This document shows, one piece after another, positions 25,527-28,562 of a stretch of DNA of 47,636 nt. The position numbers were made by a program, and so were the translations under genes. Source of the stretch: Bdellovibrionales bacterium (GTDB lineage: Bacteria; Bdellovibrionota; FAC87; UBA2466); contig SXPJ01000021.1 in the NCBI GenBank assembly GCA_005776395.1, positions 1 to 47,636 of the forward strand, read 5' to 3'. The notes beneath the pieces are model-generated. The model was not told the DNA's origin. It was given only the letters and a program-made list of their open reading frames with translations, and did not search any database. The stretch's first letter is position 1, and the number at the start of each line of letters is the position of its first letter.

Positions 25527-25555
25527 TTGACTCAATGCAATATATTTGTTATTTA
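25527..25555 (+). promoter_or_regulatory. candidate promoter of the NtrC-type regulator
   Basis: TTGACT (25527-25532) and TATTTA (25550-25555) are separated by 17 bases. They lie 20 bases before the ATG at 25576. The in-frame TTG at 25546 would fall inside this promoter, supporting the ATG as the start. Confidence 0.4.
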
Positions 25556-25575
25556 TACCCTTTCTGTTCATAAAT

Positions 25576-26949
25576 ATGGCACCAGTTAAATATGAAATTT
25601 TATTGGTTGATGACGACCGAACTCTTCTTCAGGCGATGGAGACGGCCTTATCCCCTCAATTCACTGTCCATGCCTTCTCTAATTCAAGCGATGCCAGTGC
25701 AATTCTTAGGGCTCGAAATATTCCCGTTGTTATTTTAGACCTTCATCTACCCGAGATCTACGGACTGGATCTCCTTAAGCGCTGGAAAGTTGAGTTCCCG
25801 GAAACAGAAGTTATCTTTTGTAGTGGAGAACAAAAGGTTGAAAAGGCCATTGAGTGCTTAAGGCATGGAGCTTCAGACTTTATCTCTAAGCCATTTAAAA
25901 AAGAGGATTTGCTTTGCCTCGTTCAACGAACCTTAGAAAAACATGAGCTTAAAAAAAGAAGTGAAAAATTAAATCCTCTTCTCAATCCGATGCCTATCGA
26001 ATTCATCGGAAAGTCACCAGTCATTCTAGACCTATTAAATAAAGTAAAACTTTTAAAAAACAACCCTCATCTCAATGTCATTCTTTTAGGTGAAAGCGGC
26101 ACAGGGAAAGAGATCATGGCCCGATTGCTTCATCAACAGGAAGCAGAAAGTAACCGCCCTTTTGTGGTGGTTAATATGCCCGCCATTCCAGCCAATCTAA
26201 TGGAGGCCGAACTATTCGGAGTTGAGCGGGGTGCTTACACTGATGCCAAACAAAGTCGTGCCGGGAAGTTTGAACTTGCTGACGGAGGCGACATATTCTT
26301 GGATGAAATTGGGGATCTTCCTCTGGACACCCAAGCCAAATTATTACGAGCCTTACAAGAACGCCAAATCGAAAGGGTGGGCTCTAACCGTAGCCGACGA
26401 ATTTCCTTCAGAGCCATTTCAGCTACCAATCAACCCTTATCTGATCTGATGACTAGTGGTCGTTTTAGAGAAGATGTGATCTATAGACTTAGTGATATGG
26501 TGTTGTGGCTTCCCCCTCTTCGAGAGCGAAAAGAGGATATCCCTCTCTTAGCTGACTACTTCATTAAAAAATATTCAAGAGGATATGATCTACCCATTTT
26601 AGGAGAGAAAGCTTTACAGTATTTATTGAGTTACTCATGGCCTGGAAATATTAGGCAACTAGAATCCACCATTAAACGCACTTTAATTTTCTGTGGAACT
26701 CAAGTTATCGAGGAGATTGAAATTTACGACCCCTCAACCTTTAATCCGATAGGTAAAATAACAAATCAACAACAAGCCTCACATCTTGAGGAAGATAACT
26801 TTGATGTTCAAATTAGGGAATTTGAAAAAACTCTTCTTGCCTCCACGATTCAAAAGTTTCAAGGAGATAAAAACGCCGCAATGAAAGTTCTAAAATTACC
26901 TAGAGCGACATTCTATCGTAAGCTTTCTCAACTAGGTCTTATCAATTAA
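25576..26949 (+). CDS. NtrC-family response regulator (AAA+ with C-terminal HTH)
   Basis: The product is 457 residues from the ATG at 25576. An N-terminal receiver (ILLVDDDR, phosphoacceptor D55 in VILDLHLP, KPF lysine) is followed by a sigma-54-type AAA+ domain: Walker A GESGTGKE (172-179), Walker B GDIFLDEIGDL, and the arginine-finger segment GRFREDVIYRL. A Fis-like DNA-binding helix closes it (NAAMKVLKLPRATFYRKLSQLGL). The sigma-54 contact loop reads GAYTDA (219-224) instead of GAFTGA. The phosphorylation and ATPase sites look intact. No histidine kinase gene is adjacent, so it is an orphan regulator. It is transcribed divergently from the TPR gene. Confidence 0.9.
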   Translation: MAPVKYEILLVDDDRTLLQAMETALSPQFTVHAFSNSSDASAILRARNIPVVILDLHLPEIYGLDLLKRWKVEFPETEVIFCSGEQKVEKAIECLRHGASDFISKPFKKEDLLCLVQRTLEKHELKKRSEKLNPLLNPMPIEFIGKSPVILDLLNKVKLLKNNPHLNVILLGESGTGKEIMARLLHQQEAESNRPFVVVNMPAIPANLMEAELFGVERGAYTDAKQSRAGKFELADGGDIFLDEIGDLPLDTQAKLLRALQERQIERVGSNRSRRISFRAISATNQPLSDLMTSGRFREDVIYRLSDMVLWLPPLRERKEDIPLLADYFIKKYSRGYDLPILGEKALQYLLSYSWPGNIRQLESTIKRTLIFCGTQVIEEIEIYDPSTFNPIGKITNQQQASHLEEDNFDVQIREFEKTLLASTIQKFQGDKNAAMKVLKLPRATFYRKLSQLGLIN

Positions 26950-27210: not shown

Positions 27211-27633
27211 CTACCACCAAACTACGACTCGACCGCTACCGCCTTGTCCTCCGGGGGTAGCCCACCCAGCTCCGCCTCCGTTTCCGCCTCCCCCAGGAGT
27301 TGAACCTGGCTTACCTCGACCGTACGACGAAGGGCCTCCTAAGCCACCTCTTGGCGATCCTCCCCCATGACCGTTCGCTGCAGTGGTCCCAGCGTAGGTC
27401 CCTTCTCCACCGGCTTGTCCGGAAATATTGAATCTTGCGGTTGAGGTGCCACCTACTCCTGCTGGTGGTGAGGTCCCCCCGCGAACACCACCTGTCCCTC
27501 CTCCGGCACTGATAATGGTGCCGAAAGAAGTTGTCCCACCGGTACCACCGCCCTGTCCTACCGGTCCGCCGGCACCCGCCGGGCCGATCGTTACGGGATA
27601 ATCGGTACCCGGTGACACTGTGAAGATGTCCAT
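27211..27633 (-). CDS. detached glycine-rich C-terminal domain (second half of a frameshifted gene)
   Basis: This open frame encodes a glycine-rich domain with repeated GGxGG runs (GPAGAGGPVGQGGGTGG, SPRGGLGGPSSYGRG) and the typical closing GGQGGSGRVVVWW. The upstream frame, read through one fewer G in the tract at 27675-27683, joins it seamlessly to the prepilin-like protein ending in VEVWGAGGGGSGG. It is therefore the missing C-terminus of that protein, not an independent gene. The M of MDIFTVSPG has no evident ribosome site. Reading on from the tract, the domain starts near 27670. Confidence 0.6.
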   Translation of the reverse strand: MDIFTVSPGTDYPVTIGPAGAGGPVGQGGGTGGTTSFGTIISAGGGTGGVRGGTSPPAGVGGTSTARFNISGQAGGEGTYAGTTAANGHGGGSPRGGLGGPSSYGRGKPGSTPGGGGNGGGAGWATPGGQGGSGRVVVWW

Positions 27634-27670
27634 TCCATAACCCCCACCCCCACCGCCTGGGGCATATCCG

Positions 27671-28414
27671 TTAGCCCCCCCCCGAACCGCCGCCGCCCGC
27701 GCCCCAAACTTCTACCAAAATGGTGCTAACGCCCGCCGGAACTGTCCAAGTCTGAGAGGTATCAATTACCCTAAAGTTTTGAAATCCCTTGGCACCCACT
27801 TGATCGGAAGAACCGATATTCAAAGAACAGGCTAAAATATTATTTTTTTCTGAACCGGTAGTATTGTTTGTGGTTATCAGAATGGGCAGACGAATTTGTC
27901 GAGTGAATCCCGAGGCATCGGCCGAATGGCCCAAGACCAACGAAAGATCTAAACTGGCCACAAGGGTACGAGCGGCAATTGAACTCACGACGGTATTACT
28001 GCGCAAAGTGGGGTCTAGTTCCGTTAACTGAATAGAACTTACAAAAAAATTGCCATTTTTCTCCCCTTTTTTCGCCAAGGTGAGTGATCCAATTTTAAGT
28101 TGTGCCAATGTGTTTGCAAGAGAATAGGCATCAATCTGCGACGTTGTTGGATTTTTTGGTAATACAATAGAGGGAGCGAATTTGGCTCGATTTCCACTAA
28201 GATCTTGAAAGGCTACTGGGCATGTTTGCGAACTCGACAGTAGCGTCTGAATCTGCATTTTGATTGAAGCGATCTCAGCCCTAGCCCCATTCAATTCAGC
28301 AGCCTTAGTTAACCCCTCGATCATTCTCATGGCTCCGATTCCCAATACACCCAAGAGCACCGATGCTATGACAATCTCTAAGAGTCCAAAACCTGATTTG
28401 CCAATTTTACGCAT
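27671..28414 (-). CDS. type IV prepilin-like protein, cut short at a G9 tract
   Basis: As the sequence stands this encodes 247 residues. The N-terminus is a class III (prepilin) signal: KSGFGLLEIVIASVLLG, with predicted cleavage before F, glutamate at mature position 5 and a long hydrophobic helix. The middle is a variable pilin-like body with three cysteines. The end (TWTVPAGVSTILVEVWGAGGGGSGG) is the start of a glycine-rich domain common on surface and tail-fibre-like proteins. A TAA follows a run of nine G. With eight (or eleven) G the frame continues through the glycine-rich ORF to 27211, giving about 400 residues. Processing by prepilin peptidase and export by a type II/IV pilus-like machine are inferred. 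Confidence 0.75.
   Translation of the reverse strand: MRKIGKSGFGLLEIVIASVLLGVLGIGAMRMIEGLTKAAELNGARAEIASIKMQIQTLLSSSQTCPVAFQDLSGNRAKFAPSIVLPKNPTTSQIDAYSLANTLAQLKIGSLTLAKKGEKNGNFFVSSIQLTELDPTLRSNTVVSSIAARTLVASLDLSLVLGHSADASGFTRQIRLPILITTNNTTGSEKNNILACSLNIGSSDQVGAKGFQNFRVIDTSQTWTVPAGVSTILVEVWGAGGGGSGGG
27675..27683 (-). repeat. homopolymer tract (G9 on the coding strand)
   Basis: Nine consecutive C on the plus strand are nine G in the prepilin-like gene, right where the frame of the glycine-rich domain is lost. Such tracts slip during replication and commonly drive phase variation of surface proteins. A sequencing or assembly length error is the alternative. Confidence 0.75.
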
Positions 28415-28562
28415 AAACGTACCTCGAAAAGCGATGATTAGTTATTCGTGTTATTTTAACATTTTACGACATATTACTCATTTGAACAATTGTGATTGTT
28501 TTTTACATCATTTATACTACCCTAAAATCGGACATTTCTATTTCGTCACAACACTTAAAGCT

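Follow-up and report, generated by a model that had tools for sequence, protein, structure and literature searches.

The window, the whole stretch of 47,636 nucleotides that was analysed, is contig 12 of 106 in a 2.76-Mb genome, which we take to be a metagenome-assembled Bdellovibrionota genome, probably of freshwater origin. On its minus strand an ORF of 247 amino acids (28414-27671) begins with the N-terminus of a prepilin (KIGKSG^FGLLEIVIASVLLGVLG) and ends with the residues VEVWGAGGGGSGGG, at a stop codon that follows a run of nine G. The features of the locus are:

28415..28517, minus strand: promoter-side stretch 5' of the gene, common to a paralogue on contig 7; the 87% DNA identity (blastn) starts here and reaches approximately codon 197
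27671..28414, minus strand: prepilin-like ORF as assembled, 247 aa, with class III signal peptide, pilin module (approximately aa 1-200), linker and the beginning (~30 residues) of a Gly_rich_2 domain (N_methyl 16.0 bits, and motif KSG^FGLLE by eye)
27675..27683, minus strand: G9 homopolymer tract, then C, then the stop TAA
27211..27674, minus strand: rest of the Gly_rich_2 domain in another frame, closing with GGQGGSGRVVVWW and a stop; ATG 27633 falls inside the domain
27211..28414, minus strand: whole inferred gene, a putative modular pilin with pilin module and glycine-rich tip module, assembled out of frame

A single gene with a split glycine-rich domain

The break in frame falls exactly at the G9 tract, which is the longest G run in the window. 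The last codons of the 247-aa ORF read TCG GGG GGG GGC TAA; the first-pass annotation correctly described nine G (27683-27675) and then a stop, and was one base off in placing TAA right after the tract, given that a C lies between them. When the length of the tract was changed in silico from 7 to 13 G, three products alternated, so that what the gene encodes depends on the frame, as in a contingency locus. With 8 or 11 G the protein has 400 or 401 aa and the C-terminus GGQGGSGRVVVWW (GRVVVWW), as the same annotation had predicted in proposing that these lengths open the frame into the 27211 ORF; with 9 or 12 G it has 247 or 248 aa, and with 7, 10 or 13 G it has 273, 274 or 275 aa and a foreign, unrelated tail. 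The frame after the tract runs for 154 codons without further lesion up to its canonical closure. It is also open 5' of its own first ATG, with residues ANGYAPGGGGGGYG that fit the domain, and for this reason we regard the downstream ORF as a continuation and not as a separate gene.

The domain profile joins the two halves, taking as a match a score above the curated Pfam cut-off (24.3 bits for Gly_rich_2, PF21722) over most of the profile. Separately, the first and second pieces score 16.0 and 14.1 bits, both below the cut-off, whereas the read-through protein scores 37.1 bits (E 4.5e-9) over profile positions 5-223 of 226, a gain beyond chance which bears out the earlier remark that the halves fit in sequence and domain order. 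A C-terminal module that is not specific to pilus biology is accordingly present in the read-through protein and absent from the ORF as assembled. In a phylum-wide search Gly_rich_2 was present in 36 of 369 genomes, and among the ORFs examined two, in G260 (L088, 404 aa) and G358 (L099, 457 aa), unite the prepilin N-terminus with the domain in a single ORF; these are the one-ORF relatives for which the first-pass annotation had called. The G358 protein aligns across the position of the tract (47.6% identity, 82 aa, E 1e-10), and a homologue in G098 (L106) combines prepilin and domain in one ORF up to a 2-base N gap.

Because the halves form one domain and two genomes of the phylum encode both parts as one ORF, the locus is, as far as sequence comparison goes, a single gene that belongs to the known 'modular pilin' type and is out of frame in the assembly. 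That the short prepilin and a glycine-rich protein begun at ATG 27633 come from two genes of their own is scarcely credible, and this candidate was disfavoured: a G-rich stretch 5' of that ATG could pass as a ribosome site, but the domain would be split in mid-fold, Gly_rich_2 already covers the codons that follow the tract and precede the ATG, a protein started there would lack an export signal and the homologues are single ORFs.

Regarding the identity of the pilin module, the sequence KSG^FGLLEIVIASVLLG matches the prepilin signature by eye, with G at the cleavage site and Glu at +5. The Pfam N_methyl profile gives 16.0 bits for the 247-aa ORF and 18.6 bits in the whole-genome search, both below the cut-off of 21.2, and the pilin call, which upholds the prepilin N-terminus noted earlier, consequently rests on motif, architecture and homologues. 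An AlphaFold model of the 247-aa product from a two-sequence input has a mean pLDDT of 30.8 and contains only a long N-terminal helix (10-41). The genome also encodes a predicted assembly machinery, comprising 15 prepilin-like genes, among them a GspG/H/I/J-like cluster on contig 56 that has a secretin and an ATPase-like ORF close by. On these grounds the gene is predicted to be a modular (minor) type IV-type pilin gene and a candidate for a surface adhesin, in which the N-terminal pilin module would insert in the membrane and assemble into a filament and the C-terminal Gly_rich_2 module would be displayed at the surface.

Paralogues and genomic setting

A paralogue on contig 7 (L032:3243-4211, minus strand, 322 aa) has the same pilin module and then changes abruptly to an H-type lectin (H_lectin, PF09458; 25.9 bits, cut-off 24). 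It shares 87% DNA identity with the window gene over 693 bp (blastn, window 28517 to 27825), comprising approximately 100 bp upstream and the pilin module as far as codon ~197, and 82% protein identity over aa 1-205. Within the shared pilin module dN is 0.098 and dS is 0.268, implying purifying constraint. As this paralogue shares the promoter region and the pilin module and yet carries a lectin, the genome swaps adhesive tips, lectin or glycine-rich, on one pilin base, and this conclusion is firmer than that of switching. Independently of any switching, two genes with nearly the same base and exchanged tips are a clear natural case of modules grafted onto pilins. An H-type lectin was found in none of the 13 other genomes searched in the family.

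Two further prepilin sequences belong to this group. The third copy, on contig 98 (L033:375-464, minus strand), is a remnant of 45 bp upstream and 25 codons of the pilin module followed by unrelated sequence. On contig 2 a further prepilin runs into the beginning of a glycine-rich domain and stops at the contig edge; the end of this contig (L034:1-100) looks chimeric, as if a GC-rich tail had been attached where this prepilin gene has its glycine-rich codons.

None of the five genus relatives has the pilin locus, and in them the two flanking genes lie on different contigs or have other neighbours. Since the flanking genes lie apart in the relatives, the locus sits at a rearrangement; a synteny test for an empty site was discarded, as these genes are not adjacent there and no clean empty site exists. 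A methyltransferase gene flanks the pilin locus and a TPR gene is also a neighbour. In two genus relatives (L065:3478-7320 and L066:3648-9548) the methyltransferase gene adjoins a small gene and a lipoprotein-like ORF of 1280 and 1966 aa, respectively; the window has neither the small gene nor a very long lipoprotein-like ORF beside it. The orthologue of the NtrC-type regulator of the window (25546-26949) on contig 71 of G003 carries an internal stop TAA (L062:9336-9352).

Readings of the G9 tract

None of the 38 glycine-rich ORFs of the phylum contains a G run longer than seven (longest runs 4-7), and the homologues spell the same glycines with mixed GGN codons. Conservation or enrichment of the tract, as in a contingency locus, is thus not seen, the relatives being without the run. 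The relatives compared comprise one genome per species, and neither a second genome of this species nor a close orthologue was found in the 97 relatives or in pilin scans of genome_contigs and viral_contigs.

The genome contains approximately 31 G/C tracts of at least nine bases, most of them in intact, often housekeeping genes. Nine lie inside Pfam matches with the frame intact (IspE, alpha/beta hydrolase, FlgI, PP2C, DnaJ_C, UvrC, CoA_binding_3, QRPTase_C and AhpC), a tenth lies between two domains of one glycosyltransferase, and the only clear break of a recognisable domain among the tracts checked is that in the pilin surface gene. Under a first-order Markov model of the 63% GC glycine-rich stretch, a G9 is expected in 26-33% of simulated stretches, so base composition makes such a run not improbable here. 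The idea that G9 would identify switching genes across the genome was rejected on account of the many intact genes with such tracts, and since these are so common in intact housekeeping genes G9 marks no special or contingency locus here.

Longer tracts occur elsewhere. On contig 65 two adjacent GT87-family glycosyltransferase genes contain G15 (L169:1691-1705) and G10 (L171:1685-1694) in their 5' parts, and these are better placed for phase variation than the G9 of the pilin gene. An ORF of 154 aa on contig 1, which has no Pfam match and whose N-terminus resembles a signal peptide, contains a G12 close to its start (L152:1728-1739). Tracts of G15 on contig 33 (L161:1760-1774) and G11 on contig 5 (L153:1706-1716) are intergenic, where variation in promoter length is possible.

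The first-pass annotation went further and proposed that the cell toggles between a short and a long form. Nothing beyond the position of the tract speaks for this, the tract is unconserved, and tracts of this length are common in intact housekeeping genes (ispE, flgI, uvrC and others) where switching is not expected; we therefore consider switching at G9 plausible but unproven. Mechanistically, the gain of one base in a G8 tract, or the loss of two from G11, would put the tip module out of frame. A real extra base would have arisen by strand slippage, to which such a tract is especially prone, and for that reason the population would mix tip-bearing cells (G8 or G11) with tip-less ones. The 154 lesion-free codons and the canonical closure imply that any break is recent or reversible. 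That the extra base is real, arose by slippage and is reversible, giving C-terminal phase variation of a pilus-tip adhesin, is the reading we prefer, tentatively, at somewhat short of an even chance. The 'short pilin-like form' is as likely to be a damaged product as a designed alternative, because its end falls approximately 30 residues inside the glycine-rich domain. If the tract does vary, phase variation would affect just the tip of a modular pilin, which would suggest bet-hedging in attachment. A limited literature search found, among the papers it listed, no report of homopolymer switching in the phylum.

An error of one base in the assembly or consensus, in which case the true tract would be G8 and the gene would encode a normal, unbroken modular pilin (400 aa), is somewhat unlikely but has several observations in its favour. 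Neither of the two complete homologues found is out of frame. These assemblies tend to fail at glycine-rich domains: a contig end cuts 6 of the 55 Gly_rich_2 matches of the phylum search, the prepilin and glycine-rich gene on contig 2 ends within its domain in a seemingly foreign GC-rich tail, and the N gap of the G098 homologue lies in its glycine-rich domain. Moreover, in one metagenome as many as 1% of genes were estimated to suffer from spurious homopolymer indels in Illumina data, although such indels arise especially in tracts of more than 14 bases (PMC8808543). The other G9 tracts of this assembly also argue against an error, being in frame in conserved genes; as nine of them sit in intact Pfam-matched frames, the assembly does not generally miscount G9.

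If the base is real, it may alternatively be a one-off frameshift by which the lineage lost its tip module, leaving a young pseudogene or truncated pilin under no selected switching, which we judge fairly improbable. It would agree with the lack of conservation of the tract, with the reduction of the pilin-module copy on contig 98 to 25 codons and with the locus itself, which is probably a recent, dispensable acquisition given its absence from the five genus relatives and the separation of its flanking genes there. The frame after the tract nevertheless contains no second lesion, and breaks within G runs are inherently reversible, so that a one-off event and phase variation differ by rate and selection.

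Recoding, in which the G9 gene would yield the full protein through slippage of transcription or a +1 shift of the ribosome on GGG GGG GGC TAA, is highly improbable. A slippery run directly before a stop codon is the arrangement at known recoding sites, and here the sequence beyond the run is intact; against this, nothing is conserved, and the homologues lack the run and need no recoding.

Phase variation at the tract could also be combined with the exchange of tips described above. Duplicates with a common promoter region and pilin module would then carry different tips, one of them switched by slippage, resulting in a population mixed in its attachment properties; this dual diversification is doubtful.

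Comparison with known systems

Among predators, the part of the account of the Myxococcus Kil pilus at hand (PMC12075869) resembles our case in describing minor pilins of a predator lineage with extra C-terminal domains and several paralogous sets per genome, and tips are predicted in Bdellovibrio as well. Kil is a Tad-type pilus with heterotrimeric tips, unlike the gene studied here, and the likeness is one of description; that part of the account describes no phase variation of the tips.

The meningococcal PilC genes, which are pilus-associated, switch through repeat tracts (PMC6735796). As in Neisseria PilC1/PilC2, the on and off states of a pilus-associated adhesin would be set by a repeat tract in its gene, but PilC is not a pilin and its repeats of ~12-13 switch expression of the protein and not a C-terminal module. 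In Helicobacter canadensis, poly-G tracts late in genes alter the C-terminus and vary in length among reads (PMC2823697). The similarity lies in a poly-G towards the 3' part whose length sets the C-terminus, with the N-terminal part always made; the C-terminal cases there all have at least G10 and read-level variation, whereas here there is a G9 in one assembled sequence.

Modular type IV pilins are represented by PilB and PilC of S. sanguinis and a survey of 264 architectures (PMC8179133), in the main text of which the term 'glycine-rich' is absent. The gene described here differs from them in its Gly_rich_2 tip and in the frame broken at G9 in the assembly. It shares with them the order of parts, in which a class III signal peptide and the pilin module precede a C-terminal adhesive module that is not specific to pili, lectin modules recur among them as in the H_lectin of the contig 7 paralogue, and the grafting of modules on pilins is the strategy that has been proposed for S. 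sanguinis PilB.
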